NCBI GenBank assembly: GCA_938049385.1
Contig: CALIBQ010000044.1
Span: 1-64,000, forward strand
Direction: 5' to 3'
Length of the DNA stretch: 64,000 bases
Source of the DNA: an uncultured Anaerolineae bacterium
GTDB lineage: Bacteria; Chloroflexota; Anaerolineae; JACIWP01
Below are positions 9,948 to 43,780 of the stretch, piece by piece (within the stretch, counting starts at the first letter, position 1; each line of letters begins with the position of its first letter). A program made the translations under genes and the position numbers. The notes under the pieces are model-generated. The model saw nothing but the letters and a program-made list of their open reading frames with translations, ran no database searches and was not told where the DNA came from.

Positions 9948-9981
9948 GTCCAGTGCACCTGGATGCAGTATCTCTCGCTAG

Positions 9982-15358: not shown

Positions 15359-15412
15359 GCTGGATCGCTCCCCGCCGGCCGCGGCAGGTTTGGCAAGGGG
15401 CCGGCACTCCGC

Positions 15413-15441
15413 ATTATACGATTCCCGGCGGGGCTTGTCAA
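15413..15441 (-). promoter_or_regulatory. Consensus promoter of the REC-roadblock/polA run
   Basis: On the minus strand: TTGACA (15441-15436), a 17-base spacer, TATAAT (15418-15413). Both hexamers are perfect. Transcription would start near 15406, about 48 bases before the ATG at 15358. It is divergent from the promoter at 15535-15563. Confidence 0.85.
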
Positions 15442-15534
15442 CGCGGGGGCGATCCCCACACCGGTCCGATGATTATGCGCGCCATAACTTGGGATATTTA
15501 GATGAGCGGCGTCGGGCCTGATTAGGGGGCGCGC

Positions 15535-15563
15535 TTGACAGTGCCGGCGCCCCGTGCTATCCT
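15535..15563 (+). promoter_or_regulatory. Promoter of the zinc-ribbon membrane protein gene
   Basis: TTGACA at 15535-15540, a 17-base spacer, TATCCT at 15558-15563. Transcription would start near 15570, 32 bases before the ATG at 15602. Confidence 0.75.
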
Positions 15564-15601
15564 GTGGCAGACTTCATGGGTTGGAGCGGCACAGCAGGGC
15601 G

Positions 15602-16990: not shown

Positions 16991-17099
16991 TCTAAGACCC
17001 GACCCGCGACTTTCGACCTCTTGCAGGGTTATCATCTTTTGAATGTGCCGGTACCCCAGAGGCCGGCACGTCCCACATTCCATTCGCGTGGAGGATGTC

Positions 17100-18341: not shown

Positions 18342-18386
18342 TCTCCACTGTCTGAACATATCCATTATGACGTTGCGGAGCTGTCT

Positions 18387-19511: not shown

Positions 19512-19620
19512 GGACGACCCTTGTGGTCGTCGGTAGGTCGTCGGTAGGGGCGACCCTTGTGGTCGTCCCCTATGGTTAGGGCAACCACAAGGGTTGGGGC
19601 AACCACAAGGGTTGCCCCTA
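19509..19620. repeat. Array of four short palindromic units, two in each orientation
   Basis: Units with the core GACCCTTGTGGTCGTC begin at 19509 and 19544. Units with the complementary core CAACCACAAGGGTT follow from about 19576, the last closing as GGGTTGCCCCTA at 19620. Each unit is itself a hairpin and the halves of the array are inverted, so the whole can fold into a large stem. The terminal TAG/CTA triplets are the stop codons of the two convergent genes that flank it. It probably also acts as a two-way transcript end. Confidence 0.8.
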
Positions 19621-20475
19621 CGGGTGTAACCGTCTCTCGAACAGGGACTGCTTCAGCTCGGCATAAAGGACGTAGCCGCTGGATTGGAACGCCGCCTGTG
19701 CGTCGTCCAGGCCCTCGGGGATGACGGCCTGGACGTTCTCGGAGCGGCCGACGGCCCAGGCGCGCAAGGAGCGGGCCAGCGCCGGCATCGCCTCGGCATC
19801 GCCGGCGATGAGGCCGCAGGTCACATCCCCATATTCCAGGTCCACCGAGGCGATGAGCAGGCCGTGCCACGCGCCCTCCGCCGGCCAGACCCAGACCTGT
19901 CCCGCCTGCTGGCGCTCTGCCAGACGCTCCTGCGTCAGCCGGCGCCAGACCCAGCCCTCGCAGAGCAGTCCGCCGGTCAGGCGGTGCCAATGGCTTTGCC
20001 GGATGAACTCCCAGGCGGCCGGCAGTTCGTCGGCGTCCAGCAGGCGTGCCTCGAACGTCCCGCCAGCCGGCGCCTCCCAGAGCAGGGAATCCGCCAGCCG
20101 GCGGAAGCGGTACACCTTCGCCAGGTGCTGGACAGGCGCGTTGTCGCTGGCGGTGCAGAAGCGCGCCACATGCACCCCACTGCGCCGCACCACGAACATC
20201 TGATAGGCGAACAAGATGCTGGCCAGGCCCTGCCCCTGATACTGGGGGTGCACCCTCCCGCCTTCCAGCCAGGCCTCGCCCGGGTCAGGGAAGGACACTC
20301 GCCCCAGGCCGGCCAGTTTGCCCTCTACCTCCACGACGTAGAAATGGCCCGTGGGGTCCTGCACCCAAGCGTCGAAGACGCGCGGCAGGTAGTCGTGCCC
20401 TTCCCAAATATCGCGGGTGAGTTCCAGCACGGCCGGCTTGTCCTCGGGGCGGGCGGGACGGATGAGCAGGGTCAT
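19618..20475 (-). CDS. GNAT family N-acetyltransferase
   Basis: 285 residues. The N-terminal half (1-150) is a GNAT acetyl-CoA-dependent acyltransferase: IRPARPEDKPAVLEL at the start and the acetyl-CoA binding motif A around VHPQYQGQGLAS. The C-terminal half (about 155-280) resembles a second, degenerate GNAT fold without the binding loop, an arrangement known in several two-domain members. The substrate is unknown. It lies 3 bases after the coiled-coil membrane protein gene. Its stop codon TAG is supplied by the end of the repeat array 19509-19620. Confidence 0.82.
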   Translation of the reverse strand: MTLLIRPARPEDKPAVLELTRDIWEGHDYLPRVFDAWVQDPTGHFYVVEVEGKLAGLGRVSFPDPGEAWLEGGRVHPQYQGQGLASILFAYQMFVVRRSGVHVARFCTASDNAPVQHLAKVYRFRRLADSLLWEAPAGGTFEARLLDADELPAAWEFIRQSHWHRLTGGLLCEGWVWRRLTQERLAERQQAGQVWVWPAEGAWHGLLIASVDLEYGDVTCGLIAGDAEAMPALARSLRAWAVGRSENVQAVIPEGLDDAQAAFQSSGYVLYAELKQSLFERRLHP

Positions 20476-20478
20476 GGC

Positions 20479-21138
20479 TCACTCCTGCGCCTGGTTTGTG
20501 GGGCGTTCGCTATCCGATGGCAAGGAGGCCGGCGGCTCGCCGGCCGGCAGGAACCGGCCTTCCGCCAGCATGCGCTCCAGCAACTGCCGCGCTTCCTCCT
20601 GCTGTAAGAAGGTGGAGAGCAGGGCCTGCTTATAGCGCACGGCGCGGGCGCTCTCCTGGTACTGCTTCTCCAGCCGATCCATGAGCTTGCCGGTCAGGTC
20701 CCCGACCATATCGCGCATTTCCTCCTGCAGGCGCGCGATCTGCTCATGGAGCTGTTCGTTCTCCAGCAGGAGCGCACTGACAGCCTCGCGCTGGCCGCGC
20801 CCGAAGAGGCTCAGCAGACCCCCCTGGCTCAGGCGGTCGCGCAAGCGCGCTACCTCTTTCTCCAAGGCCTCAATGCGCGCCTGTTTCTCGGCGACGATTT
20901 CCTCGTACTTGCGCACCAGCTCTTCTTTGTCGTGGGCGAGGGAGTCAAAGAGGCGTGAGACGGTCCCTTCCTGCTGTCGGCGCTGTTCCTCCAGAGCCTT
21001 TTCCAGCCGGCGGCGCCAGTTCCATGAGAGGAGCCAGATGACCAGACCGGCTGCCGCCGCCGTTGCCAGGAAGGTCAGCAGTACCTTCGGGTCCATGAGC
21101 ACTTCCATAAATTCTGCGCAATCCTTTCTGCCTGTCAC
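20479..21138 (-). CDS. Membrane-anchored coiled-coil protein (unknown function)
   Basis: 219 residues. One hydrophobic helix (VLLTFLATAAAAGLVIWLLSW, about 19-39) is followed by a long charged coiled coil (about 42-150, rich in Glu, Arg, Lys and Leu) and a helical C-terminal part. The start ATG at 21138 overlaps the upstream stop (ATGA). In-frame ATGs at 21108 and 21096 are possible. The layout resembles scaffold proteins such as RmuC or DivIVA-like factors, but without their catalytic or signature motifs. Its function is unknown. Confidence 0.72.
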   Translation of the reverse strand: MTGRKDCAEFMEVLMDPKVLLTFLATAAAAGLVIWLLSWNWRRRLEKALEEQRRQQEGTVSRLFDSLAHDKEELVRKYEEIVAEKQARIEALEKEVARLRDRLSQGGLLSLFGRGQREAVSALLLENEQLHEQIARLQEEMRDMVGDLTGKLMDRLEKQYQESARAVRYKQALLSTFLQQEEARQLLERMLAEGRFLPAGEPPASLPSDSERPTNQAQE

Positions 21139-27850: not shown

Positions 27851-27879
27851 TTGGCGCGGCGGTGCGAATGGGGTATAAT
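27851..27879 (+). promoter_or_regulatory. Promoter of the TolB-like gene
   Basis: TTGGCG at 27851-27856, a 17-base spacer, TATAAT at 27874-27879. Transcription would start near 27886, 33 bases before the ATG at 27919. Confidence 0.7.
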
Positions 27880-27918
27880 GGCGGCGCGTGCATGTCATTA
27901 TCACATGGGGGATTCGCG

Positions 27919-29004
27919 ATGGTCTATTACCTGATCGCCGGCCTGTGTTTCGTGGTGGGTCTCAGCGCCCTGGCTGGGGCGCTGTTCAGCCGCTCGCCGG
28001 CGCGGCGGCGAACGGCGTTCGCCGCGGTATGGGTCGTTTTCTGGGCCGTTTCCCTCGGCCTGGTCTATATGGCGGAGAAACAATCTGCCGCTCGTCCTAT
28101 GGTACAGACGCCGACCCGTTCTGCAGTCACTCCCTCTGTGACGCATACCCAGCGTCCGACAGCTACGCCGACGCCGGCAGTTCCTGCCGGCCGCGTGGCT
28201 TTCCACAGCGACCGCACCGGCGATTTCGAGATATGGGTCATCAACGATGACGGGACGAACCCTGTGCAGTTGACCTCTTCCCCCGAACGGGATATTGAGC
28301 CGTGCTGGTCCCCTGACGGTTCGAAAATCGTCTTTGCCTCGGGAAGGGATGACCCCGATAATTTGGAGCTGTACGTGATGAACGCCGACGGGACGGACCA
28401 GCGCCGGCTGGTGGAGCTACAGCCCGGCGATGACCTGGCGCCGGCGTGGTCCCCGGATGGGAGCAAAATCGCCTTCCATACCAACCGCGACGGCAATCTG
28501 GAGGTTTACGTGGTCAACGCTGACGGCACAGGGTTGAAAAACCTGACCAATTACCCGGATGCCAATGACAGCCGGCCGAGCTGGTCGCCCGACGGCAGGT
28601 ACATCGCCTTCGTGTCGGATCGGGACGGCAACAGCGAGATTTACGTGATGGATGCCGACGGGAGCAACCAGCGCCGGCTGACCTTTGATGTGGCCAACGA
28701 TACGGTGCCGCGCTGGTCGCCCGACGGGAAGACCATCGCCTTTGAATCCACCCGGGGTGTGCGGTTGAGCATCTACCTGATGGACGTGGATGGTTCAAAC
28801 GTGCGGCCGGCCCTGCGAGAAGCGCAGGAGGATGCGGCGCCGGCGTGGGGCAACGGCGGCCGGCGCATCTATTTCTCCTCTTTGCGCACGGGTTCATGGG
28901 AGATTTTCTACGTGGACCTGGTGACGGGTGAGGAGGTTCAGCTCACGAAAGCGGAGGGGTACAACCGCTATCCGGCCTGGGGGTCGATGACCGCCGTTCC
29001 CTGA
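27919..29004 (+). CDS. Membrane-anchored TolB-like beta-propeller protein
   Basis: 361 residues from the ATG at 27919, which has GGGGGA upstream. Earlier in-frame starts lie in or upstream of the -10. Two hydrophobic helices at 3-23 (YYLIAGLCFVVGLSALAGAL) and about 35-52, a Thr/Pro-rich linker (about 60-90), then six WD40-like PD40 blades, each with a W-SPDG core (CWSPDGSKIVFAS, AWSPDGSKIAFHT, SWSPDGRYIAFVS, RWSPDGKTIAFES). The blade set matches TolB/DPP-IV-type propellers. There is no peptidase domain, so it is likely an extracytoplasmic binding or scaffold protein. No Tol-Pal partners are nearby. Confidence 0.85.
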   Translation: MVYYLIAGLCFVVGLSALAGALFSRSPARRRTAFAAVWVVFWAVSLGLVYMAEKQSAARPMVQTPTRSAVTPSVTHTQRPTATPTPAVPAGRVAFHSDRTGDFEIWVINDDGTNPVQLTSSPERDIEPCWSPDGSKIVFASGRDDPDNLELYVMNADGTDQRRLVELQPGDDLAPAWSPDGSKIAFHTNRDGNLEVYVVNADGTGLKNLTNYPDANDSRPSWSPDGRYIAFVSDRDGNSEIYVMDADGSNQRRLTFDVANDTVPRWSPDGKTIAFESTRGVRLSIYLMDVDGSNVRPALREAQEDAAPAWGNGGRRIYFSSLRTGSWEIFYVDLVTGEEVQLTKAEGYNRYPAWGSMTAVP

Positions 29005-30739: not shown

Positions 30740-32161
30740 TCAGAATGCTCCGCGCCCGCGGATGACCGCGCCGATGGTCTTGATGAGGATGTGCAGGTCC
30801 AGCCAAAGCGAATAATTTTTGATGTAGTACAGGTCGTCCTCGGTGTGCAGGTGCATGGGACGGTCGGCGCGGCCGCTGATCTGCCACCAGCCGGTGATGC
30901 CGGGCGGGACGGAGAGCCGGCGGCGTTGCCAGGGCTCGTACTGCTCGACGATGCAGGGAAGCTCCGGCCGCGGCCCCACCAGGCTCATCTCGCCCTTCAG
31001 CACGTTGAAGAACTGCGGCAGTTCGTCCAGGCTGGAGCGGCGCAGGAAGCGGCCCAGCCGCGTCACGCGCGGGTCATTGGGGAGTTTATGGATGGGTTTG
31101 CCGTCATCGGTGTACTGAATGACCTCATGAAGTTGGTGTTCCGCACCGTCCACCATGGTGCGGAATTTGTACATGAGGAACGGCCGGCCGTTCTCCCCCA
31201 CGCGCCACTGCTTGAAGATGACCGGGCCGGGGGAATCCAGCTTGATGGCCAGCGCGATGAGCGCCATGATGGGGGCAGTGATGACGATGAGCACGGCTGA
31301 GAGGAGCACGTCGAAGATGCGCTTGACCAGCCGGGTGTAGCCGTTGATGGCCGGCGCCCGCAGGCTGATGATCGGCATCCCGTCAATCTCTTCCACTTCG
31401 GTGCGGGCGAAGGCAAGGTCAAAGAGGTCTGGCACGACCTTGACCTCCACTGGGAGCTTCTGCAGTTCCGTCACCAGATTGATAAGCCGGTGATGCGCCC
31501 GCAGTGGCAGGGCGAAAATGACCTCATGGATGTTCTGCTCCTGGACGATGTTGCAGACCGTATCCAGCGGGCCGAGCACCGGCACCCCTTCGTACTCGCA
31601 GCTCCATTTCTCCGGGGCGTCGTCCAGGAATCCCACCACTCGGGCCATGGGCCAGCCGCGGCTGGAGTGGATGGCGCGCGCCAGGTCCTGCCCCACTTTG
31701 CCGGCGCCCAGGATAAGCACCCGCAGGGGGTCCTGATCGCGCCCCATGCGGATGTAAAAGAGCGTGCGCATCAACACCCGAAAGCCGATCAGAGCGATGA
31801 GGTCGAAGAAAAAGAAGTAAACGAAGAGCAGGCGGGGCACAGTGCGGTAGGTGAGGTACAGCACGCCGGCGAAGGCGGCTGTGGCGGCCAGCACTGCCAC
31901 CGCGACCGACTGCAGTTCCTGCGTCAGGCTGGCCATTTTGCGGTGGGAATAGACGGAGAGCGTATTGAAAAAGAAGACCCACAGCACCACGACCAGTACA
32001 TAGACCACAGGAGATAATTCCGCCGCCTTGGGGTGTGCGATCTCCGCGCCAAAGGGCCAGGATAACCGGGCCAGACGCGCCAGCGACAGGGCGATAACCG
32101 TCAGAACGATGTCACTGGCTCCCAGGAAAAGGCGAAAATTCACTTCGGAATCGCGGGGCAC
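30740..32161 (-). CDS. Polyprenyl-phosphate sugar phosphotransferase (exopolysaccharide initiation)
   Basis: 473 residues from a GTG with GGAGG upstream. The layout is that of WbaP/WcaJ-type enzymes: four membrane helices in the first 130 residues, a Rossmann-like CoA-binding-type domain (VLILGAGKVGQDLARAI near 148), a further helix (about 275-300), and the catalytic bacterial sugar transferase domain with MYKFRTMVDGAE, MSLVGPRPELPCIVEQY and GITGWWQISGR. It moves a sugar-1-phosphate from a nucleotide sugar to undecaprenyl phosphate, starting repeat-unit synthesis. It is the last gene of the locus read from 43739. A second member lies at 59137-60549. Confidence 0.92.
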   Translation of the reverse strand: MPRDSEVNFRLFLGASDIVLTVIALSLARLARLSWPFGAEIAHPKAAELSPVVYVLVVVLWVFFFNTLSVYSHRKMASLTQELQSVAVAVLAATAAFAGVLYLTYRTVPRLLFVYFFFFDLIALIGFRVLMRTLFYIRMGRDQDPLRVLILGAGKVGQDLARAIHSSRGWPMARVVGFLDDAPEKWSCEYEGVPVLGPLDTVCNIVQEQNIHEVIFALPLRAHHRLINLVTELQKLPVEVKVVPDLFDLAFARTEVEEIDGMPIISLRAPAINGYTRLVKRIFDVLLSAVLIVITAPIMALIALAIKLDSPGPVIFKQWRVGENGRPFLMYKFRTMVDGAEHQLHEVIQYTDDGKPIHKLPNDPRVTRLGRFLRRSSLDELPQFFNVLKGEMSLVGPRPELPCIVEQYEPWQRRRLSVPPGITGWWQISGRADRPMHLHTEDDLYYIKNYSLWLDLHILIKTIGAVIRGRGAF

Positions 32162-32198: not shown

Positions 32199-32984
32199 TC
32201 ACCACAGAGGCAGGGGATGTTTGCTGAACAGCCGCATTATACTCCTGAGATGAATCCACGTCAATCGGTTGAAGGGGCCGCGCGCGCTCTCGCGGCGGTG
32301 GTGATGGATGATACGGGCGGTGGGGACGTAGTACACCGACCAGCCGGCGGCGTGCGCCCGATAGCACCAGTCAATGTCCTCGTAGTACATGAAAAAGCCC
32401 TCGTCCAGCGGCCCCACCTGCTCCCAGGCCTGCCGGCGGATGAGCAGACAGGCCCCCAGCACCCAGTCCACCTGGCGGGGCGTCTCATGGTCCCAGTCGC
32501 TCATCAGGTAACGGCACAGGCTGGGATGATGCGGGAATATGCGGTGCAGGGGAGTGCCGCGCAGGATGACGCCCAGCAGGTTGGGGAATTCCCGGCAGGA
32601 GGTCTGTATCTCCCCGTCCAGGCCGATGAGCTGTCCGCCAGCCGCGCCGGCGTCGGGATGCTCTTCCATGAACCGCACCAGCTCGTCCAGCGCGCCGGCC
32701 TGCACCTGGGTATCCGGGTTGAGCAGGAGGATATAGCGTCCGCGAGCACGTGCGATGCCGCGGTTGTTGCCGGCGGCAAAGCCCAGATTCGCCGGGTTCT
32801 CCAGCACCTGCACCTCTGGGAACTCGCGCCGGATGCGCGCCGGCGTCCCGTCGCCGCTGGCGTTGTCCACCACCCATATCTCGGAAGTCCCCAGGGTGAA
32901 GGGATAGCGCCGGAGGGACTGCAGGCATTCGACCAGCAGGTCTGGCGTGCGGTAGTGCAGGATAATGATGGAAAGGTCAATCAT
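32199..32984 (-). CDS. Glycosyltransferase family 2 (rhamnosyltransferase-like)
   Basis: 261 residues from the ATG at 32984, which overlaps the end of the GT4 gene by 8 bases. A longer start at 33017 would add residues before the first strand. Seen: LSIIILHYRTPDLLVECL, the nucleotide-sugar site VDNASGDGT, LLLNPDTQVQAGALDEL with the DxD-like NPDT, and FFMYYEDIDWCYRAHAAGW, typical of the inverting GT2 group near rhamnosyltransferases. It should add one sugar to the lipid-linked repeat unit at the inner membrane face. The sugar cannot be read from sequence. Confidence 0.9.
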   Translation of the reverse strand: MIDLSIIILHYRTPDLLVECLQSLRRYPFTLGTSEIWVVDNASGDGTPARIRREFPEVQVLENPANLGFAAGNNRGIARARGRYILLLNPDTQVQAGALDELVRFMEEHPDAGAAGGQLIGLDGEIQTSCREFPNLLGVILRGTPLHRIFPHHPSLCRYLMSDWDHETPRQVDWVLGACLLIRRQAWEQVGPLDEGFFMYYEDIDWCYRAHAAGWSVYYVPTARIIHHHRRESARGPFNRLTWIHLRSIMRLFSKHPLPLW

Positions 32985-34164
32985 CCGCCGGCGCTCTCCC
33001 GGGACGAAGCAGTTCATCCAGGACGGATTCGAGCCGCGCTGTGTTGGCCTGCGCGTCGTGCCGCGTCAGGGCGACCTCCCGGCCGGCCCGAGCGAGGCGT
33101 GCCCGCAGTTCCGCGTCCGCCAGAAGCGCGCCAATCTGCGCGGCTAGGTCGTCGGGGTCGCCAGCGCGGAAGTGCAGTCCGGTCTCCCCATGGCGCACCA
33201 GTTCTTGGGGGCCGGAGTGGTTCGGCACCACGACGGGGGTGCCGGCCAGCCAGGCCTCCGGGATGATGAGGCCGGCGCCCTCTGGGCCGGCGGAGGCCAG
33301 CACCACCACATCGGAAGCGGCCAGCAGTGCCGGCACATCCTCTATCCATCCTAATAGACGCACACTGTCCCCAAGTTGGTACGTCTCGATGCGCCGACAG
33401 ATGTCCTCTTTGTAGGATTGGTACATAGTGCGGGGGATGTCGCCGGCCAGGCAGAAATAGGCGCGGGTGCCGGCCTGCTGGAGCCGATGCGCGGCTTCCA
33501 CCAACGTGTCCAGACCCTTCTGCGGCACCATGCGCGCCACCGAGGCTACGATGGGCCAGGGTTCGGTCAGGCCGTACTGCTGGCGCACGCCGGCGGCACG
33601 CGCCTCCAGGTTCTCGAAGCGCCGGCGATCCACCCCATCGTAAATGACGCGAATCTTGCCTCCGACGTGCCGGAAATTGGCAATGGCTACCGCGTAGGTA
33701 ATGGTGATGATGCGGTCGGCCATGAGCGAGATATAGCGGTACAGGGAGCGCGTCAGCCAGCGCGGGGAGGTCCATATCTCGCGGATGTGCCAGACGTTCG
33801 GGACTCCGCTGAGCCGGGCGGCCAGCGCACCCACCGGGATGGCGCTGGAATTGGTGTACACCAGCGCGATGTGCTCCTGGCGGATCAGGCGCGTGAGCTG
33901 GAGCGTGCTGGCGATAAAGCGCCGGCCAAACTCCCATATGTCCCGCGGGCTGGAAAGCCGCTCCAGCCGACATAGGTCGAGGTAGATGATGTGGGCGCCG
34001 GCGGCCTCCAGATCGCCTACCAGGGGACCCGGATGCGGGAGCACCACCAGCGGGGTAAAGCGGCGCTGGTCCAGGTTCTGGACAATGGTCAGCAGGCCCA
34101 TATCGGCGCCGCCGTACTCGGAGCGGGAGTTCAGGAACAGAATGCGTTTTGGCTCGCTTTCCAT
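32977..34164 (-). CDS. Glycosyltransferase family 4
   Basis: 395 residues with the GT-B two-domain layout. The N-terminal domain begins RILFLNSRSEYGGADMGLLT. The C-terminal domain carries the family signature: VASVARMVPQKGLDTLVEA, then LLGWIEDVPALLAASDVVVL and PEGAGLIIPEAWLAGTPVVV with the E-x7-E pair. It is a retaining glycosyltransferase of the polysaccharide locus. Its ATG overlaps the stop of the upstream ligase gene by one base (TAATG), so the two are translationally coupled. Confidence 0.93.
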   Translation of the reverse strand: MESEPKRILFLNSRSEYGGADMGLLTIVQNLDQRRFTPLVVLPHPGPLVGDLEAAGAHIIYLDLCRLERLSSPRDIWEFGRRFIASTLQLTRLIRQEHIALVYTNSSAIPVGALAARLSGVPNVWHIREIWTSPRWLTRSLYRYISLMADRIITITYAVAIANFRHVGGKIRVIYDGVDRRRFENLEARAAGVRQQYGLTEPWPIVASVARMVPQKGLDTLVEAAHRLQQAGTRAYFCLAGDIPRTMYQSYKEDICRRIETYQLGDSVRLLGWIEDVPALLAASDVVVLASAGPEGAGLIIPEAWLAGTPVVVPNHSGPQELVRHGETGLHFRAGDPDDLAAQIGALLADAELRARLARAGREVALTRHDAQANTARLESVLDELLRPGRAPADD

Positions 34165-35747
34165 TATGCTACCTCATGGGAAGCAGGGTCAGGGGCGGAA
34201 CGGCGCGCCAGCCTGGCGGCTGTAACGATCATGGCGATATAGAACCACTGATAGGTGAAGTGGAAGGAATCCGCCATGGTGAGGCGGGCCATGAGGGCCA
34301 GGAAGCCGGCCAGCAGGCCGAGGGACGCCATGCGCATGAAGCGGTCGCCCCGCCGGCGCCACAGCCGGATGGCCTCGATCCCCTCCAGGACTACGGCGAT
34401 GACCAGCCATACGAAGGCCAGCAGGCCGGGGATGCCCGTCTCGGTCAGGAAGCGCAGGATGATACTGCCGCTCATCACAGGAAAAGCATCTGGATAGGCA
34501 TCGGTGATGGCCTTCCCCCAATCCGGCATGTAATCGTAGAAGAAAAAGCCGTAGTTGCCGTAGCCGACGCCCCAGGGGCGGTCCAGGAACATGGCCCAGG
34601 AGGCGGCGATGGCGGTGGTGCGGTGGATGTTGCCGAAATTTTCCTCCTGGAAGGGAGAGATGAAGCGGTCACTGACCGCCTGGAGCAGGGAGGCCTGCTC
34701 CGTCACGGGCATCTGCGACAGGATGAGGCTGATGATCACAATGACAACGGCGACGCCGGCCAGGGCAGTGCCGGCGCGCGCCAGAAAACGCGGGGCGAAG
34801 ACCAGCACGACCATGCCGCCCACCAGTACCGCCAGGTAGGCACTGCGGGCGAAGGTCAGCAGGAGCGCCAGGCCGGCGGCCCCCAGCGCCGCCCACAACA
34901 GCCACTGCCAGCGGCGGTCGCGCACCGCGCGGCCGGCCAGCAGGGCGAAGATCAGCGGGATGGCCCCGCTCAGGAAATCGCCGAACCACACCGGCTCCGA
35001 GGCGACGGACCAGATGCGCAGGAAGCGTCCGCCGGCCAGCGGGATGGCCCACTGCCGCGAGGCCCCGAACGATGCGCTTTGCGGAAACGGGTCTACCCCC
35101 GGCCAGCCCAGCGGGTAGGCGATGAACTGGTAGATGCCGTACAGCGACACCGCCAGGGTGGAAAGGATGAGGACGACAACGGCGCGCCGGAACAGCCGGC
35201 GGTCCTGCACGGTCAGCACTACCACCGCATACGTGACGACCATGAGCAGGAACTGCGCGATCTGCTTGGCACTGCGGATGTAGCGCACCTCGCCGCGATA
35301 TTCCCCGGGCGGCACCTGGGCGGAGAGGAAGAACGATGCCGCGATGGCCAGCGTCAGCAGGAGGACGGCGGTATGCACCCGCGAACGCGGCCACCACAGC
35401 GGGCGTGCCCGGCGCAGTGCGCGGCAGAGCAGGAGCAGAGCTGTGAAGGCCAGGGCGGCGTAATTGGCCTGGAGGCTGAAGCCCATCTCGAGGAGGGAGA
35501 AGCGCGTCGCCGGCATCAGGAAGACGAAGGCCAGGAAAGCCCATTCGACAGGGCTTCGGCTCCGCAGGGAAAGCCATATGCCGGCGGCCAGCACTGCCAG
35601 CCCCAGCAGGCCAAGGGCCAGGGCCAATTGGGGCACGGGGAGCAAGGCCAGCGCCAGCGCCGCGACCAGCGCGCCGGCCATCAGCATCGCCTGCCAGAGC
35701 GGAGGATGTTCTGCCAGCCAGGAACGTGCGCTCTCCATCAGGGTCAT
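34164..35747 (-). CDS. O-antigen ligase/polymerase-like membrane protein (Wzy/WaaL type)
   Basis: 527 residues with about 12 hydrophobic helices and a large outer loop between about residues 330 and 440 (MFLDRPWGVGYGNYGFFFYDY), the O-antigen ligase/Wzy_C pattern. Such proteins polymerise lipid-linked repeat units or transfer them to an acceptor outside the membrane. The GxGxGN-like stretch GVGYGNYG matches the H/G-rich loop of the family. It overlaps both neighbours: ATGA with the flippase and TAATG with the GT4 gene. Whether it acts as polymerase or ligase cannot be told from sequence. Confidence 0.88.
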   Translation of the reverse strand: MTLMESARSWLAEHPPLWQAMLMAGALVAALALALLPVPQLALALGLLGLAVLAAGIWLSLRSRSPVEWAFLAFVFLMPATRFSLLEMGFSLQANYAALAFTALLLLCRALRRARPLWWPRSRVHTAVLLLTLAIAASFFLSAQVPPGEYRGEVRYIRSAKQIAQFLLMVVTYAVVVLTVQDRRLFRRAVVVLILSTLAVSLYGIYQFIAYPLGWPGVDPFPQSASFGASRQWAIPLAGGRFLRIWSVASEPVWFGDFLSGAIPLIFALLAGRAVRDRRWQWLLWAALGAAGLALLLTFARSAYLAVLVGGMVVLVFAPRFLARAGTALAGVAVVIVIISLILSQMPVTEQASLLQAVSDRFISPFQEENFGNIHRTTAIAASWAMFLDRPWGVGYGNYGFFFYDYMPDWGKAITDAYPDAFPVMSGSIILRFLTETGIPGLLAFVWLVIAVVLEGIEAIRLWRRRGDRFMRMASLGLLAGFLALMARLTMADSFHFTYQWFYIAMIVTAARLARRSAPDPASHEVA

Positions 35748-37234
35748 CGCGACCCTCCTGTGCCGGCGCCACTGCTGGGGCGCAGGGCGGCCCGCGGCCG
35801 GAGCAGTGCGGCGAACTGGCGCAGTTCACTGGCTTCCACCAGGCCCAGCGGCCGCAGCGTGGCGAGGTACAGAAGGCCGGCGGCGGCCAGTCGGAGCAGT
35901 ACCGACCCAGCCGGCCATAATATGATGATGACAGCCGCCGGCAGGGCGCCGGCCGCCAGCCGTAGGAGCGGGCCGGCGAAATTATATGTCCCCAGGCCCC
36001 GGCTGACGTAATAATATCCCACGGCGAAGGCGACCACCTGCGCGGCAAGCATGGCGACAGCGGCACCGGTGGCGCCAGCGCGAGGGATGAGCCAGATGCC
36101 CAGGGCCAAGTGCGGCACCAGGGAAATGGCCAGGCTGATGGCCTCAAAATGCTGTTGCCCGAGCGCCGTCAGCAGGTACTTGAAGGTGTAATTAGGGAAC
36201 ATGAAGACCAGCGACCAGACCATCAGCGCCAGTGCCGGCGCCGCGCCGCGGTACTCAGCCCCGAAAAGCAGTACCACGATAGGTTCGCTCATCATGGAGG
36301 TGAGCACGGCGACCGGCACAGTCATGATGAGGAAGTACTTGAATATCTTCTGGTACAGGGCCAGCGCGCGCTGCCGCCCCTCGGCGTCGCGGGTCAGGTT
36401 GGAAAGCGCCGGCAGGAGGCCGGCCATGAGGCTGTCGGGCACGATGTTCATGCGGGAGATGAGCCGGTAAGGAGCGCCGTACAATCCCAACTCCAGCGCG
36501 GTTTGCAGAATCTGGAGCAGGAAGGTGTCGAGCTGGCCGTCCAGCGTGCGGAAGCCTGTGGAAAAAAGCAGGGGGAGCGACTCCCGGAAGAAGTAGCGCA
36601 GGCGCGGCCACTGCACCTGCCAGGCCGGCCGGGCGAACTTCCACCAGACGATGATACTGCAGAAGATGAGCTTGATGGTGAATGAAAGCACCTGGAACCA
36701 GAAAATGGACAGGAAGCCCCAGCGCAGGATCATGACCAGAATCACGCCGGCCAGGAACACGCCGCGCTCGATGAACACCGAGATTGCCAGATATTTGGTG
36801 TCCTCGAAGGCGGTGAAGACGCTGGCGAACAGGTTGGCCAGCACCTGAATGATGGACGCCAGGACACTGATGTAAACCGCTGTCACGACCCCGGCTTCGC
36901 GGGTGAAGAGCGGTAGGAGCAGGACGGAGAGAAGCGCCGCCAGGATGGTAAAGACCGCCTGAACCACCAGGGCATGGGTCAGGTTCTCGCCGGCGCGCGG
37001 GCGGTCGCGTGCCGTCTCGCGGATGAGGATACTGAAGGTTCCGCCGGTCGCCAGTGTACCGATGAAGAGGGAATAGGCCATGACGAAGGCGTAGCGGCCA
37101 AAGCCCTCGGCCCCCAGATAGCGGGTGATGAGCAGGACGGTGATGACGTTGGCAGCCAGGCCGATAAGGCGCGAGAGGAAGATATAGCCGGCGGTGGCAA
37201 CGGAACTGCGTCCGACAGGGGTCTCTTCTGCCAT
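35744..37234 (-). CDS. Polysaccharide flippase (Wzx-like, MOP superfamily)
   Basis: 496 residues from the ATG at 37234; a TTG at 37243 is an alternative. About 14 membrane helices are predicted and the opening SVATAGYIFLSRLIGLAANV is typical of the polysaccharide biosynthesis transport family. It should turn the lipid-linked repeat unit across the membrane before polymerisation. The start lies 15 bases after the upstream phosphodiesterase-like gene and its stop overlaps the ligase start, so it belongs to the same transcript. Confidence 0.92.
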   Translation of the reverse strand: MAEETPVGRSSVATAGYIFLSRLIGLAANVITVLLITRYLGAEGFGRYAFVMAYSLFIGTLATGGTFSILIRETARDRPRAGENLTHALVVQAVFTILAALLSVLLLPLFTREAGVVTAVYISVLASIIQVLANLFASVFTAFEDTKYLAISVFIERGVFLAGVILVMILRWGFLSIFWFQVLSFTIKLIFCSIIVWWKFARPAWQVQWPRLRYFFRESLPLLFSTGFRTLDGQLDTFLLQILQTALELGLYGAPYRLISRMNIVPDSLMAGLLPALSNLTRDAEGRQRALALYQKIFKYFLIMTVPVAVLTSMMSEPIVVLLFGAEYRGAAPALALMVWSLVFMFPNYTFKYLLTALGQQHFEAISLAISLVPHLALGIWLIPRAGATGAAVAMLAAQVVAFAVGYYYVSRGLGTYNFAGPLLRLAAGALPAAVIIILWPAGSVLLRLAAAGLLYLATLRPLGLVEASELRQFAALLRPRAALRPSSGAGTGGSR

Positions 37235-37249
37235 CTCTGCCAACTCTAA

Positions 37250-38959
37250 CTAATCCAGGTATCCCAGGCCGCGTAGGCGCTCTTCCAGGATAGCCCGTTC
37301 CTCTTCGTTGTAGAGGTCGCCGCCAGCCGGGGTCTCCCCGCTCTCGATGGCATCGAAGTAGCGCACTGTCGGCAGGGCCTCGAACAGCTCCGCCAGCACT
37401 CGCCCGTCCAGGCCGCGCGGCACGGCACAGCCGGCCAGGTGCAGGATGGTCGGCGCCATGTCTATGATTTCCGCGCCTTCGAGTGCACGGCCGGCGGCGA
37501 TGCCAGGCCCCTCCACGAACAGCATACCATAGAGCCGGTGCGTGCCGTTGGGCAGGTATTCCCGCAGGAGCTCCTGGCGTGACATGGTGTAGATGCTGAC
37601 CGGGCCGGGGCTGGTGTGGCTGGGCCGCACTCGGTAATAGGGGTCCTGCCGGGGGATGAGGATGATATCGGGCGCCCGCTCCAGCTCCGTGCCGTGGTAT
37701 ATCTCTTCCCGCAGGCCGGCATATTCGATGACCGCTTCGCCGGTGAGAGGGTCCTTCCATTCGTGCAGGCGCTCCAGGATCTGTCGGCGCAGTTTCTCAT
37801 ACTCGGCGCCGGGCTGGACAGTGCCCTGCGGCTCACGGCCGGCGAGGTTGATCCAGATGCTCTCCTGATACTCGTCCGCGTAGGCGAGGGTGTGCTCCCA
37901 ATCAATGAAGAAGAAAGCGGCTGGGTAGCGGATGCGCTGGTACCAGCGCGGCGCCAGGCGCTCCAACGCGGTCTTGAGCCGCTGGGGCACCATCTGGCGC
38001 AGGCGTTCCCAGGCCGTGCGCCACACCAGCCGGCCCAGGCCGGCCGCGCTCTGGGGTGCGGCCGGCTGGCGTCGGAACCTCAACCAGCCCTGCTCCGCCA
38101 GCCAGTTGTTCAGGTAGATGACCTTGTCGCTGGTAGGGCCGAAGCCGTGATCCGACATGACGATGAGCACGTCCTCAGGGGAAAGGCGCCGGCGCACCTC
38201 CGCGACGAATTCATCCAGCCGCTGATAGACGCGCAGGATGCGGTCGCCGTATCGGCCGGCGCCGGCGGGGTCGTACTGCGGATGGGCCGGCTCCATGAAC
38301 TTCCAGAAATGGTGCTGGACGCTGTCCGTGGCGCGGAAGTTCACGGCGAAGACGTCCCATTCCCCGTGTTCCAGGAGATAACGCGTCGCGGCGATCTGGC
38401 TCTCCATGTGGCGCTCGATCTTGTCCCACAGCGCGTCATAGCGGTAGGTGCGTGCCTCTTCCTCCAGCGTTGGCTCGATGATGTATTCCCCCAGCCGGCG
38501 GAGCAGTTCCTCCTTCAGTTCCGGCGGGTAGGTGTAGGCGCTGTCCTCGCCCGGCGTGTCCATGCCGGAGACTATGAAGCCGTCCAGCGGCTCGGGCGGA
38601 TAGGTCATCACCAGGTTGACTATGCCGGCCCGGCGCCCCTGCTCGTTCAGCATGCGCCAGAGGGGCTTGCCGCGCCGGTCCGCCCCGCACACCAAGCGCG
38701 ATTCGTAGGTGCCGGAGATGTGCTCTTTGAAGTAGTAGATGCCGTGCCGGCCGGGGTTGTTGCCAGTGACGAAGCTGGCCCAGGCCGGCGCGCTCACCGG
38801 CGGGATGGTGGACTTCATACGGCCGTACGCGCCGCGTTCCAGCATGCCGGCCAGCGCCGGCAGTCTGCCCTCGCGCGCCCAGCGGACGGCCAGCTCAAAC
38901 ACCGCACCGTCCCATCCGAGCACCACTACCTTCCGTTTGGTCAGCTCGCCGTCTGCCAT
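37250..38959 (-). CDS. Alkaline phosphatase superfamily enzyme, type I phosphodiesterase-like (second of a pair)
   Basis: 569 residues from the ATG at 38959, five bases after the upstream stop. It has the nucleotide pyrophosphatase/phosphodiesterase core: metal Asp17 (VVLGWDGA), probable nucleophile Ser56 in IPPVSAPAWASFVTG followed by NPGRHGIYYF, ATDSVQHHFW (Asp/His), VMSDHGFGP (Asp-His), and a late His in PSHTSPGP. There is no signal peptide or membrane helix, so it should act in the cytoplasm. It resembles its neighbour at 38965-40686 over the whole length. The substrate is unknown. Inside a Wzx/Wzy locus it may act on a nucleotide-linked or polyprenyl-linked intermediate (inference). Confidence 0.87.
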   Translation of the reverse strand: MADGELTKRKVVVLGWDGAVFELAVRWAREGRLPALAGMLERGAYGRMKSTIPPVSAPAWASFVTGNNPGRHGIYYFKEHISGTYESRLVCGADRRGKPLWRMLNEQGRRAGIVNLVMTYPPEPLDGFIVSGMDTPGEDSAYTYPPELKEELLRRLGEYIIEPTLEEEARTYRYDALWDKIERHMESQIAATRYLLEHGEWDVFAVNFRATDSVQHHFWKFMEPAHPQYDPAGAGRYGDRILRVYQRLDEFVAEVRRRLSPEDVLIVMSDHGFGPTSDKVIYLNNWLAEQGWLRFRRQPAAPQSAAGLGRLVWRTAWERLRQMVPQRLKTALERLAPRWYQRIRYPAAFFFIDWEHTLAYADEYQESIWINLAGREPQGTVQPGAEYEKLRRQILERLHEWKDPLTGEAVIEYAGLREEIYHGTELERAPDIILIPRQDPYYRVRPSHTSPGPVSIYTMSRQELLREYLPNGTHRLYGMLFVEGPGIAAGRALEGAEIIDMAPTILHLAGCAVPRGLDGRVLAELFEALPTVRYFDAIESGETPAGGDLYNEEERAILEERLRGLGYLD

Positions 38960-38964
38960 GTCCG

Positions 38965-40686
38965 TTATCCCAGGTACCCCAGGCCGGCCAGTTTTTCCCG
39001 CACCAGCTCCTCTTCTTCCTCGCTGTAGCCCAGGCGCTCGGCGGGACCGCCGGCACCCCAATCGCGGTACTGCACTTCTCCCGGCCGCTCCAGCGCTTCC
39101 ACCAGCACGCGCCCGTCCATGTGGGATGGCACGGGCAGTCCCATCAGGTGCAGGATAGTGGGGGCGATGTCCATGATGGAGGCGTTATGCAGTTGGACGC
39201 CGGCCTTGATGTTGGGGCCGGCCAGCAGGATGATGCCTTCCGAGCGGTGCAGGCCGGGGGGCAGGAAATCCTCCAGCAGTTCCTCGCGGGAGAGGGTCTG
39301 CACGGGGTCCGGCCGGCGGGCGGTATGGCTCAGGCGCGTGCGGTAGTACGGCTCCTCGCGAAGCTGAACGAAAATATCCGGCGCCTGTTCCGCGTAAGGG
39401 CCGTGATACAGCTCCTCGCGGAGATAGACGCGCTCCACGATGTGTTCGCCCGTCTCGGGGTCAATCAGCGATTCACTCAACCGGCGGGCGATTTCTCGCC
39501 GTAGGCGCTCATATTCCTCGCCGGGCGAGACGATGCCCTGCGGCTCGCGCCCGCGCAGGTTGACCCAGATAGCCTCGCGGAATTCGTCGGAATAGGCCTG
39601 CGTGTGGGCCCAGTCAATGGCGAAGTAGGACGCTGGCGAGCGGGCGCGGTCGTACAGGGTAGGGAAGAGCCGGCGGATCGTGTCCTTGGTGCGCTTGCCC
39701 AGCCACTTGCGCAGGTAGTGCCAGATGCTCTTCCACAGGAAGCCCATCAGGCCGGCGCGCAGGCGGCCGGCGAGGGAGCGAGAGCGTTCGCCGACGAAGG
39801 TCAGCCAGCCCTGCTGGGCCAGCCAGCGGTTAAAGTAGACGGCTTTGGCGCTGGCCGGGCCGGCGCCGTGGTCGGAGACGAGGATGAGCGCCGCCTCGGC
39901 ATCGAGGCGCCGGCGGAGCACGCCGATCCACTCGTCCAGCCGCTGGTAGACGCGCAGGATGCAGTCCCCGTAGCGGCCGGCGCTCTGCGGGTCGTACAGC
40001 GGGTGCGCCGGGTCCAGGAAGTGCCAGAAATGGTGCTGGATGTTGTCTGTGGCGCGGAAATTGACCACGAACAGGTTCCAGGGCTTGGTGGCCATCAGGT
40101 ATTCCACCGCTTTGAAGCGCTGTTCCATAGCATGCATGATGGCCTGGAAGGCGGCATCATAGCGCCCGCGGCGGGTGTGCTCCACCAGTCCCGGCTCGAT
40201 GATATATTCCCCGATGGCGGATTCCAGCTCTTTCGCCAGTTCCGGGGGGTAGGTATACTGACTGCCTGTGCCCGGGGCGTCCACGCCGGCGATGACGATG
40301 CCGTTGACGCGTTCCGGCGGAAAGGTCATGGCCACGTTGACGGCAATGCTGGATTTGCCGGCGTCGCTCAGGATGCGCCAGATGGTAGGCGCTTTCACGT
40401 CGGCACCGCTGACCAGCCGCGCCTGATAGCTGTTCGGGACATGTTCCTGGAAGTGATAAATGCCGTGCTTGCCCGGGTTCACACCGGTCATGAAAGAGAC
40501 CCATGCCGGCGCGCTGATGGGCGGTATCGTGGATGCCAGCGGACCGTGGGCGCCCTCTGTCAGCAGTTGGGCCAGGTGGGGCAGTTTCCCCTGGCGCACC
40601 CACGGCGTGATCAGGTCCCAGGTCGCGCCGTCCAGTCCGACGACCATGACGCGCCGGACGGCCGGCGGCGGTACATCTGTCATCAT
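38965..40686 (-). CDS. Alkaline phosphatase superfamily enzyme, type I phosphodiesterase-like (first of a pair)
   Basis: 573 residues from the ATG at 40686, with GAGGG upstream; the next codon is also ATG. The core motifs match the neighbouring paralogue: Asp19 (MVVGLDGATWD), probable nucleophile Ser58 (IPPISAPAWVSFMTG) with NPGKHGIYHF, ATDNIQHHFW, LVSDHGAGP and LSHTARRPDP. No export signal is seen. The pair probably arose by tandem duplication, and both copies keep every metal ligand. Serine in place of the usual threonine nucleophile is acceptable in the superfamily. It lies 8 bases downstream of the DUF2142-like gene. Confidence 0.87.
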   Translation of the reverse strand: MMTDVPPPAVRRVMVVGLDGATWDLITPWVRQGKLPHLAQLLTEGAHGPLASTIPPISAPAWVSFMTGVNPGKHGIYHFQEHVPNSYQARLVSGADVKAPTIWRILSDAGKSSIAVNVAMTFPPERVNGIVIAGVDAPGTGSQYTYPPELAKELESAIGEYIIEPGLVEHTRRGRYDAAFQAIMHAMEQRFKAVEYLMATKPWNLFVVNFRATDNIQHHFWHFLDPAHPLYDPQSAGRYGDCILRVYQRLDEWIGVLRRRLDAEAALILVSDHGAGPASAKAVYFNRWLAQQGWLTFVGERSRSLAGRLRAGLMGFLWKSIWHYLRKWLGKRTKDTIRRLFPTLYDRARSPASYFAIDWAHTQAYSDEFREAIWVNLRGREPQGIVSPGEEYERLRREIARRLSESLIDPETGEHIVERVYLREELYHGPYAEQAPDIFVQLREEPYYRTRLSHTARRPDPVQTLSREELLEDFLPPGLHRSEGIILLAGPNIKAGVQLHNASIMDIAPTILHLMGLPVPSHMDGRVLVEALERPGEVQYRDWGAGGPAERLGYSEEEEELVREKLAGLGYLG

Positions 40687-40694: not shown

Positions 40695-42527
40695 TCAGAG
40701 ATTCAGCCCGATGTGATAATAGTGTGGTACAAGATAGCCCCAAAAGGCGATCTGGTCAAATATGAAGAGCAGGATGACGAGCGCTCCTGACCAGATGCGG
40801 CGCGGCAGGCGAACCGGCGCCAGTTCCAGCCAGCCGGCGGCCAGCAGGGCGCAGAGCGGCAGGAGAGCAGGGAAGAGGTAGCGCCCCTGGGGCTGCCAGC
40901 CACTGCCAATCATGGGCAGGAAAGTCTGCAGAAGGATCAAGCCGGCCGCGATACCCATCCCCGCCCAGCCGGCCCCCAACCGCCGACGGCGCACAGCCCG
41001 CATCAGCCCGACGCCAGCGGCCAGACAGACACCGGCCGGCAGGAGGTACCACTGCGGCGTGAGGGGCAGGGTGAGCCAGCCGAAATTGGCCCAGAAGCCG
41101 GCGAAGGTCAGCATCCCATAGAGGATATAGCGCCGCAGGGAGGGCCAGGAGTAGCTGGCCGGCTCCAGCAGATGCGGCACCTGTCCTGGCGAGACGCGGA
41201 GAAAGCGTGCCCACCATCCTTGGCTCCAGTGCGCTCCCTCTTCCAGCCCGGGATTTTGGAGGAGCTGGCGGCGGGTCGGGTCGCCGGCGCGCCAGAGGGC
41301 GATGTCATCGGCCAGCAGGGGGACGGGGCCGGCATTGGCGATCACCACGGCCAGTCTGCTTGCTCTCTCTGAGACGACGCGGCAGGCCTGCACGTACTGC
41401 CAGCCGGCGCCGTTGGGGCGAAATCCCTGCCGCGTGCTGGATTCCCCGTCGGTGATGACCAAATAGCCCTGCGCCGGCGCGCCTTCTGCCATCACCCAGA
41501 CCCCTAGGCACAGCTCGCTCCCGCGCAACTGCTGAGCCTTATTGAATGACAGTTCCTGGAGCGCGCGAGTTGGTTCTCCGTTCACCGCCGGCGCCAGGTA
41601 CAGGGCATATTGGCCGGCATGGGAGGCACTGCTGATGCGTTCCGCCGGCTGGTAGCTGATGGGGGTCACCCAATCCGATGCGCCGGCCAGGTGCCAGCTC
41701 CAGGCGATGCTCAGCGCCGAGGCGAATGCCAGGCCAGCGGCTGGCCACCAGGCCCGGTGGGCGCCCAACCAGGCGCACAGTTCCCTTCGGTACGCGATCA
41801 CAAGCGTGAGGCACACGGCCGGCCATAGGAACAGCGTCGTTTTCTTTGTGAATGCCGATGCCAGCAGGAACAGCCCCAGCAGTCCTATGTTCTGCGGGTT
41901 CCAACCCCGGCGGATAGAGCGCAGGAGCCACCACAGCGCCGCAGATGAGACGAACATGCCGGCGATGTCGTTGTTGGCCGAACCGCCGATGAAAGCCGGC
42001 ATGGGCATGAGGAGAGCCGCCGCCAGGGCCAGGCGCCACAGGGTGATATCGCGCGTCAGTTCACCAAGCCCCTGCCAGATGAAGATCATGGTCAGGGCGT
42101 ACAGCAGGACGGACCACAGGCGCATGAGCTGTAGCCCTTGGATGGGGTCAGCCGGCATCCAACGCAGGAGGAGCGCCGGCGGGAGGTAGTAGAGTGCTGG
42201 CTCGTCCTCGCGCTGGCTGATGAGGTAGGGGTCTTGGGAGAAGCGCGCCGGCAGGGGATTGGGTGTGGGCTTGCCCAACCGCTCCCAGAAGCGTTCATCC
42301 ACCAGGGAAGCGATGATATCGGACTGCAAGTCCGCTCGCGCCGGCGCCGATGGCTCCCGCAGTCCGTAATCTGCCAGAATACGGGCGTACTCGTAATGGC
42401 CAGGTTCATCCGGCGCCTGCCAGGGCGGAACGGCCAGCAGGCCGAAGCCTGCGGCGCGGATGCCGGCCAGCAGGAAAATCAGTGCCAGCTCCCAGAGGGG
42501 TCTGGAGAAAAATGAACGGCGGTGCAC
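40695..42527 (-). CDS. DUF2142-like polytopic membrane protein, possible GT-C glycosyltransferase
   Basis: 610 residues from a GTG. The first helix is followed by PPWQAPDEPGHYEYAR, the acidic loop seen in DUF2142 and related GT-C transferases that use polyprenyl-linked sugars. About eight helices follow, then an outer domain (about 295-440) that looks like a small beta-sandwich carbohydrate-binding domain (GSELCLGVWVMAEG ... VIANAGPVPLLADDIALW), then about four more helices. Insertion of such a domain between helices is notable. It is likely to transfer sugars on the outer face of the membrane (inference). Confidence 0.8.
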   Translation of the reverse strand: MHRRSFFSRPLWELALIFLLAGIRAAGFGLLAVPPWQAPDEPGHYEYARILADYGLREPSAPARADLQSDIIASLVDERFWERLGKPTPNPLPARFSQDPYLISQREDEPALYYLPPALLLRWMPADPIQGLQLMRLWSVLLYALTMIFIWQGLGELTRDITLWRLALAAALLMPMPAFIGGSANNDIAGMFVSSAALWWLLRSIRRGWNPQNIGLLGLFLLASAFTKKTTLFLWPAVCLTLVIAYRRELCAWLGAHRAWWPAAGLAFASALSIAWSWHLAGASDWVTPISYQPAERISSASHAGQYALYLAPAVNGEPTRALQELSFNKAQQLRGSELCLGVWVMAEGAPAQGYLVITDGESSTRQGFRPNGAGWQYVQACRVVSERASRLAVVIANAGPVPLLADDIALWRAGDPTRRQLLQNPGLEEGAHWSQGWWARFLRVSPGQVPHLLEPASYSWPSLRRYILYGMLTFAGFWANFGWLTLPLTPQWYLLPAGVCLAAGVGLMRAVRRRRLGAGWAGMGIAAGLILLQTFLPMIGSGWQPQGRYLFPALLPLCALLAAGWLELAPVRLPRRIWSGALVILLFIFDQIAFWGYLVPHYYHIGLNL

Positions 42528-42539: not shown

Positions 42540-43739
42540 CTACAGCAAGCGGGTTTTCGCCGGCTGGTGCCGGGTCATGAATTCGGCGATGATGGAGGCG
42601 GCGATGGCAAGCACGGCGCCAGCCGTAATGGCAAGCACTGCGACTACGGACCAGTCACGGGATGCGCGTTTTTCCGGCGCCGCCGCCTTTCCGACCACTC
42701 GCACCAGGGGACCCTCCACCCGATTCTCGATCTCGATCTCGCTGACCTTGCGCTGAAGGGTCAGGTAATTCTCCTTGGCCAAGTTGCGTTCCTCTACCAG
42801 CCGATCCAGCTCCGAGGATAGCTGGGCCAGTTGTGCCTGGTCTGCGCTCAGGCGTTCCTCCAGAGCGGTAGCGGCGGCTTGCTGGGCCGTCAGTTCGGCA
42901 TCCAGCAGGGCGGCCAGGGCGCCGGCATCGTTCAGGTGTTCGGCAACGACCTCATGCGTCAGGATGCCGCGGGCGGCGATGGTGGGTGCGTCCAGCAACT
43001 GCCAGGACAGTTCCTCCAAGGAGGCGTTCTGCCGGCGGGCCTGCTCTAACTGTTCTTTCAGCAACTGCAGGTTGGCGATGGCCTGGCGGTGAGCGGCTAA
43101 CTGCCGGCTGCGCTCCGCCAGCTCCATGCCCAACGCCCCCAGCCATTCATAGCCCTCCAGCGATGGGGCGCCTTCGGAGGCGATACCCACACCGGTGCGG
43201 GCCTTGAACTCTTCCACGGCCTTCACTGCCTGCTGGTATTGTTCCTCCCAGCGCTTGAGTTCCTGGGCGAAGGGTTCCGCGAGGGCGGTGGCGCCGTAGA
43301 GCTGTTCAGCCTGATAGGCAAAGGCTTCCGCCCAAGCGTTGGCCAGGTCGGCGGCGTCCTGGGGCGTGAATGCAGTGACGTCGATATGGATGAGCGACTG
43401 TTTGCCGGCCCGCACGCTCATCTCCCCGATATTTTTGTGCGGGAAGCGGGTCTCCACCTGTGCGGCGACCTGGCTCCGGAACCAGGGGTCTTTGGCTAGG
43501 TCGAGAAAGATGCGCTGCCAGTTCACGTTGACTGGTATGTTGGGGGAGAGGCGGGAGTCGAAGCGCCACTGGTACTGGGGTCCGCCGGCGAAGAGGGTAG
43601 CAGTGGCCGTGTAGCTGGCCGGCCGCAGGAGATTGACGAGGAGGATGGCGCCGGCGGTCAGGATGAAAATCACGATCCCCAGACGAGCATGCCGTACCAG
43701 GATGCGCAGATATCGGGTCAGATCAAGTTCGTCTTCCAT
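42540..43739 (-). CDS. Wzz-like chain-length determinant protein
   Basis: 399 residues from the ATG at 43739; a GTG three codons earlier is an alternative. N-terminal helix (IVIFILTAGAILLVNLL, about 20-36), an extracytoplasmic domain with long coiled coil (about 160-340), and a C-terminal helix (VVAVLAITAGAVLAIAASII). This is the Wzz/polysaccharide co-polymerase layout that sets chain length. There is no C-terminal tyrosine kinase domain. It is the first gene of the polysaccharide locus, with a strong promoter 42 bases upstream. Confidence 0.9.
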   Translation of the reverse strand: MEDELDLTRYLRILVRHARLGIVIFILTAGAILLVNLLRPASYTATATLFAGGPQYQWRFDSRLSPNIPVNVNWQRIFLDLAKDPWFRSQVAAQVETRFPHKNIGEMSVRAGKQSLIHIDVTAFTPQDAADLANAWAEAFAYQAEQLYGATALAEPFAQELKRWEEQYQQAVKAVEEFKARTGVGIASEGAPSLEGYEWLGALGMELAERSRQLAAHRQAIANLQLLKEQLEQARRQNASLEELSWQLLDAPTIAARGILTHEVVAEHLNDAGALAALLDAELTAQQAAATALEERLSADQAQLAQLSSELDRLVEERNLAKENYLTLQRKVSEIEIENRVEGPLVRVVGKAAAPEKRASRDWSVVAVLAITAGAVLAIAASIIAEFMTRHQPAKTRLL

Positions 43740-43780
43740 TGCATTCACCCATGTGTCGGGGTAGATGACTTGACGCAGGT

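Follow-up and report, generated by a model that had tools for sequence, protein, structure and literature searches.

Tandem alkaline-phosphatase-superfamily enzymes in a Wzx/Wzy polysaccharide locus of an uncultured Anaerolineae bacterium belong to a widespread family found in glycan loci

Introduction

The alkaline phosphatase (AP) superfamily is well known. Its phosphotransferases of the EptA/LtaS/PIGN type have the AP fold, act on lipids or glycans, are membrane-tethered and, in the known cases, face the periplasm or lumen. In the NPPs (ENPP1/3 and Xac NPP), the Asn that follows the HGI motif binds phosphate. EboF of the ebo operon is presented in passages of PMC5133447 as an uncharacterised PF01663 lineage and a predicted hydrolase of a phosphate-containing substrate. 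In glycan assembly, DUF2304 is typical of GacJ, the partner of the undecaprenyl phosphate (Und-P)-GlcNAc synthase GacI, according to the passage of PMC8327497 on this pair. Here we analyse two adjacent PF01663 genes, AP1 and AP2, in a polysaccharide locus of an uncultured Anaerolineae bacterium (Chloroflexota; Anaerolineae; JACIWP01). They lie in a stretch of 64,000 nucleotides (nt), referred to below as the window (assembly GCA_938049385.1, contig CALIBQ010000044.1, positions 1 to 64,000, forward strand).

AP1 and AP2 share with the NPPs the PF01663 core, the seven active-site residues and the fold (VIA Z about 27), but have Phe or Trp in place of the Asn, a cationic insert of ~55 residues and no export segment, and their sequence matches in the PDB are short and weak. 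Unlike the EptA/LtaS/PIGN-type enzymes they are without a membrane domain, as no transmembrane segment is seen by hydropathy. They resemble EboF in being uncharacterised PF01663 enzymes within a biosynthetic cluster, although the EboF cluster, compared here by its description, includes a UbiA-type prenyltransferase, and PMC5133447 mentions no genes for glycan assembly in the passages on it. The family of AP1 and AP2, with members of about 550-600 residues, is widespread and uncharacterised: among the papers listed by an open-access literature search there was no characterised member and none tying the family to glycan assembly.

Results

The two genes form complete open reading frames (ORFs) on the minus strand, AP1 running from an ATG at 40686 to a TAA at 38965 and AP2 from an ATG at 38959 to a TAG at 37250.

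38965..40686, minus strand: AP1, PF01663 alkaline-phosphatase-superfamily enzyme, 573 aa (profile match, intact active site)
37250..38959, minus strand: AP2, paralogue of AP1, 569 aa (52% identity, same seven active-site residues)
39616..39792, minus strand: residues 299-357 of AP1, helical cationic insert (+11) between the DHG metal site and the IDW motif (family feature)

AP1 and AP2 score 151.0 and 139.8 bits, respectively, against the PF01663 profile (cut-off 23), and align over 564 columns with 52% identity. Both retain the full set of metal ligands and nucleophile, D-S-D-H-D-H-H (D19, S58, D214, H218, D272, H273 and H480 in AP1), and the canonical active-site set is present in 188 of 198 relatives. 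A simple hydropathy scan of the two proteins found no transmembrane segment and no N-terminal signal. The original prediction, of two complete tandem paralogues without export signals in a Wzx/Wzy locus, both keeping all metal ligands and a Ser nucleophile, is thus borne out by the ORFs, the profile scores, the scan and the active-site residues. None of the NCBIfam mutase or hydrolase models reached its cut-off; the bpg-independent phosphoglycerate mutase model gave AP1 18.7 of the required 330.65 bits, and the phosphopentomutase model gave AP2 17.7 bits (cut-off 254). A small subgroup of relatives (L096 446-1933 (+), L157 6580-8241 (-) and L173 13030-14604 (+)) reads D-T-N-H-D-H-N, with Asn replacing one metal-ligand Asp and one metal-ligand His; an altered metal site or changed chemistry are candidate readings of these sequences.

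An AlphaFold2 model of AP1, built from an alignment of 71 family members, was confident (predicted local distance difference test, pLDDT, 92.4; predicted template modelling score 0.93) and has the AP fold. The nearest solved folds found with Foldseek were those of ENPP1/ENPP3, Xac NPP, PafA and SPAP (VIA Z about 26-28 over 340-400 residues), with Z 27.7 and a root-mean-square deviation of 3.7 over 363 aligned residues for ENPP1. When aligned to Xac NPP, the position of the NPP Asn is occupied by Phe in 177 and by Trp in 11 of the 198 relatives, and by Phe in AP1 and AP2. A second family feature is the insert of ~55 residues, which is helical and follows the DHG metal site, ahead of a motif with an invariant Trp (IDW in AP1). 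Its mean net charge is +7.8, reaching at least +5 in 64 of the 71 members, and in 53 of the 71 no other stretch of equal length is as cationic. Anionic lipid head groups, or the substrate, are candidate contacts of the insert.

Relatives with E<=1e-60 were found in 123 of 298 Anaerolineae genomes, in a survey that scored four candidates per genome, so that its copy numbers are lower bounds. Twenty genomes examined whole carry 1 to 11 copies each above 370 bits. A scan of one genome per species yielded 79 distinct named loci, retained from 251 confirmed stretches, with record titles naming Chloroflexota, Planctomycetota, Nitrospirae, Acidobacteria, Verrucomicrobiota, other bacteria and several archaea. 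Two of these loci, L080 (Aminicenantes) and L081 (Heimdallarchaeota), have matches identical in score, length and position, and one of them is probably a misbinned contig.

We sought glycan-assembly genes around the AP genes with single-round, strict hidden Markov models seeded from the window's own glycosyltransferases (GT4 and GT2), flippase and polyprenyl-phosphate hexose-1-phosphate transferase (PGT), applied to all six-frame ORFs. An iterated version drifted (123 PGT matches) and its counts were discarded. Of 60 Anaerolineae loci 49 were used (11 were shorter than 12 kb, distant homologues from the window's own genome, or duplicates), together with 61 of the 79 named loci (the other 18 were too short or duplicates). 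One or more of these genes were present in 42/49 Anaerolineae loci and 50/61 named loci, and in 6/40 random regions; at least two were present in 25/49, 35/61 and 2/40, respectively. The best-scoring loci were chosen, each 12-22 kb long; they are not independent, and in several cases share one genome. The random regions, 20 kb each, were drawn from six Anaerolineae genomes and are therefore not a matched control for the named set from other phyla, and two of the 40 contain AP genes by chance and were retained. In the 20 whole genomes, a PF13440 flippase lay within 5 kb of 18 of 53 AP loci, compared with at most 1.1 expected, based on the 80 of 101 AP matches that scored above 370 bits and on 124 of 126 PF13440 matches. 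Equal frequency outside glycan loci, the outcome that had been named as speaking against the original prediction, is thus not borne out. Some AP loci that lack a flippase (L150, L170 and L177) belong to a second setting, with LPG_synthase_TM proteins, DPM1-like GT2s and GT-C proteins of the PMT_2 type. In either setting, sugars linked to polyprenyl phosphate are the expected substrates.

Tandem arrangement is common in the family. Among the 198 proteins there are at least 39 adjacent same-strand AP pairs, mostly 27-46% identical; the pair list and the tree rest on the longest non-overlapping ORFs, making 39 a lower bound (AP2 of L062, for example, was missed there). Only 3 of the 39 pairs are sisters on the tree, one of them with support 0.0, which rules out recent tandem duplication as the general origin and indicates that most are old, divergent heteropairs. 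Upstream and downstream members form parallel clades in the Pirellulales (five loci, 5+5, support 1.0), in families f21/f31 (five loci), in the L167/L169/L170 group and in L150/L152; resolution is poorer for the groups of L168 and L179. By comparison the window pair is younger, and its clade of four includes the single-copy L141. A MOP flippase directly flanks 16/38 AP clusters versus 22/142 single AP genes (Fisher p=0.0012, with rows that are not independent). The Pirellulales order, GT4-AP-AP-flippase, and that of the window, GT-C-AP-AP-flippase, are close analogues. The original prediction held that polysaccharide loci rarely need two such enzymes, but such sets are not rare there: adjacent ones recur in Anaerolineae, Planctomycetota and Nitrospirota.

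In L172 (1260-4499 (-)) two AP domains are naturally fused in frame into a protein of 1079 aa, whose halves are 39% identical and have intact active sites, one with Thr and one with Ser; a third AP gene lies directly upstream. L098 (Nitrospiraceae), at 8299-21093 (+), has, within 13 kb, a single flippase surrounded by six AP-family genes, of which the last matches weakly (285 bits); the locus also encodes a flavin amine-oxidoreductase-like and a radical-SAM/B12 protein. In the window's own genome, L182 (C10, 5102-9895 (+)) encodes an 869-aa fusion of PUA-like, ATP-sulfurylase and PF01663 parts, followed by APS kinase and a 453-aa PF01663 enzyme. Open frames of 865-909 aa matching the AP family occur in five other genomes, and the ATP-sulfurylase-AP fusion may, to judge from these lengths and matches, be recurrent.

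A further arrangement ties the family to a membrane partner. DUF2304 gave 80 matches, spread over 76 of 296 genomes, and we studied the flanks of 79, setting aside one match below the family cut-off. In 9/79 an AP gene lies within 300 nt downstream of DUF2304 or is fused to it in frame, with three fusions (G169, G250 and G061), and in all nine a GT2 gene is immediately upstream. The nine cases span seven families, and those of their AP proteins that are on the tree fall in two clades. For the GT2 of these loci the best match was the polyprenyl-phospho-N-acetylgalactosaminyl synthase model, below its cut-off. The arrangement is reminiscent of the GacI/GacJ-type Und-P-sugar synthase pair (GT2 plus DUF2304), with the AP following or fused to the GacJ-like protein in these Anaerolineae relatives; the passage of PMC8327497 on that pair mentions no AP partner. 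Hydropathy divides DUF2304 into three segments, the first loop between them being cationic, and by the positive-inside rule its C-terminus, and thus a fused AP, is therefore expected to be cytoplasmic.

In the window, AP1 and AP2 are the third and fourth genes of a nine-gene run on the minus strand (43748 -> 30740) with intergenic gaps of -41 to +37 nt. The order is Wzz-like, GT-C-like, AP1, AP2, MOP flippase, Wzy-like, GT4, GT2, PGT, and the other seven genes are as follows.

42540..43748, minus strand: Wzz-like chain-length determinant, first gene of the run (weak match, below the Pfam cut-off)
40695..42527, minus strand: GT-C-fold membrane protein by its model, 610 aa, with a carbohydrate-binding-module (CBM)-like beta-sandwich insert at residues 283-416 (expected user of a polyprenyl-phosphate sugar)
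35744..37243, minus strand: MOP/Wzx-type flippase (PF01943, PF13440)
34164..35747, minus strand: Wzy/O-antigen-ligase-type membrane protein (PF04932)
32977..34164, minus strand: GT4 glycosyltransferase (profile match)
32199..33017, minus strand: GT2 glycosyltransferase (profile match)
30740..32161, minus strand: initiating PGT (PF02397; TIGR03025 and TIGR03023 above cut-off)

Together, the PGT, glycosyltransferases, flippase, polymerase-like protein and weakly matching Wzz-like protein make this a Wzx/Wzy-dependent polysaccharide locus. The AP genes are closely packed within it, with 8 nt from the end of the GT-C-like gene to AP1, 5 nt from the AP1 stop to the AP2 start and 6 nt from AP2 to the flippase start. 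A congeneric genome retains the order AP1-AP2-flippase (L062/L185 = G002:C301) and, where a second of its contigs ends (G002:C139), carries the GT-C gene next to the beginning of AP1. On the opposite strand, at 27862-29004 (+), lies a gene for a beta-propeller protein, presumably TolB-like judging from its repeats, with relatives near AP loci L141, L153 and L185.

For the protein encoded directly upstream of AP1, the model (pLDDT 77) has a GT-C fold, resembling ArnT (Z 17.9), Stt3/PglB, ALG12 and a chain of the protein O-mannosyltransferase Pmt1-Pmt2 complex (Z 22.6). GT-C enzymes of these types use polyprenyl- or dolichyl-linked sugars. An acidic pair after the first transmembrane segment (D40 E41) is invariant in 11 sequences, and residues 283-416 form a CBM16/22-like beta-sandwich within the chain that, in the model, possibly binds glycan outside the cell. 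GT-C proteins of this type are present in 27/296 genomes, and relatives share loci with AP genes in L095, L142, L145, L147 and L153. More broadly, GT-C-like genes, called by hydropathy and an acidic-loop test after seeds from pair loci had been rejected as biased, occur near AP pairs in 14/19 Anaerolineae loci, compared with 9/30 non-pair loci (p 0.004, one of ten post-hoc comparisons).

Discussion

Our combined findings lead us to favour, tentatively, a reading in which AP1 and AP2 are cytoplasmic phosphodiesterases that work at the membrane surface, where polyprenyl-(di)phosphate sugars would be their substrates and release or recycling of these their probable role. In a sugar linked to polyprenyl phosphate or polyprenyl diphosphate, the metal-activated Ser would attack the phosphate, and water would then resolve the covalent intermediate. 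In this way surplus or mis-built lipid-linked sugars would be removed and the carrier returned before flipping. One copy might serve the diphosphate-linked repeat unit initiated by the PGT, while its partner might act on the monophosphate-linked sugar that the neighbouring GT-C enzyme uses as donor. We infer the cytoplasmic location, the lipid-linked substrate, hydrolysis over transfer and this division of labour; lipid-linked substrates are favoured because of the neighbourhood and the DUF2304 fusions, and hydrolysis only because the nearest folds are hydrolases. Of the three roles originally suggested, action on lipid-linked intermediates gains from the DUF2304 linkage, the adjacent flippase and the GT-C neighbour, whereas hydrolysis of nucleotide sugars has lost ground, given the Phe or Trp at the NPP Asn position.

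Several results weigh against this reading. No relative has a known activity. A profile scan found neither DUF2304 nor the GT2-DUF2304-AP arrangement in the window operon, in which it differs from the GacI/GacJ-type pair, and 35/53 AP loci in the 20 genomes have no PF13440 flippase within 10 kb. Support for two copies serving two carriers is mixed: in the named set GT-C-like genes are not enriched near AP pairs (5/28 versus 5/33), and a flippase and GT-C are not jointly enriched. The idea of the insert as an amphipathic-helix membrane anchor lacks statistical support, since only 17/71 sequences fall in the top tenth of shuffles and the positive charge alone is robust. Finally, a hydrolase fused to the partner of an Und-P-sugar synthase looks futile unless regulated, and one can equally well picture a productive step of transfer.

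Such a transferase would move a phospho-substituent (phosphoethanolamine-, glycerophosphate- or sugar-phosphate-like) to a lipid-linked sugar of the cytoplasmic leaflet by way of a Ser/Thr intermediate, and the two copies would differ in their acceptors. It shares the lipid-linked context of glycan loci, DUF2304 and flippase; the DUF2304-AP fusions recall the membrane-domain-plus-AP-domain layout of AP-superfamily phosphotransferases such as the EptA/LtaS/PIGN type; and up to six family genes per locus, as in L098, suit several decorations better than one recycling step. A profile scan of the window operon, however, recognised no gene that would make a donor for phospho-group transfer, and the best-matching folds are the hydrolases ENPP, PafA and SPAP. 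We consider this role a live but rather unlikely rival.

Much the same doubt attaches to a soluble-metabolite enzyme feeding the locus, either a sugar-phosphate phosphatase or phosphomutase or a nucleotide-sugar hydrolase. The lack of an export segment would suit it, as would a Ser/Thr AP fold nearest NPP, PafA and phosphonoacetate hydrolase. Hydrolysis of nucleotide sugars in the manner of NPPs is nevertheless disfavoured because the Asn position is Phe or Trp in 188/198 relatives; the NCBIfam mutase and hydrolase models stayed below cut-off, and the three fusions to the membrane protein DUF2304 behind a GT2 point to the membrane. That these are general phosphodiesterases merely sited in a glycan locus, their pairing a chance tandem duplication, seems to us very improbable: the window pair is fairly recent (51-52% identity, in the clade with L141), but the enrichment over random regions and over the flippase baseline, and the heteropairs conserved in several lineages, argue against chance.

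The tentatively favoured recycling of polyprenyl-linked sugars by AP1 and AP2 can be put more broadly. Paired, non-redundant AP enzymes on the cytoplasmic leaflet might, in several phyla and sometimes fused to an Und-P-sugar synthase partner, edit or modify lipid-linked sugars just before flipping or use by GT-C enzymes, a step missing from current models; we think it unlikely that this generalisation holds. Polyprenyl phosphate is a limiting carrier common to cell-wall and surface-glycan synthesis, and how stalled lipid-linked intermediates are cleared or modified on the cytoplasmic side is poorly known. The family would supply a concrete, testable enzyme for the clearing step, or else a new glycan-decorating transferase, and would give a function to many genes annotated just as "alkaline phosphatase family protein".

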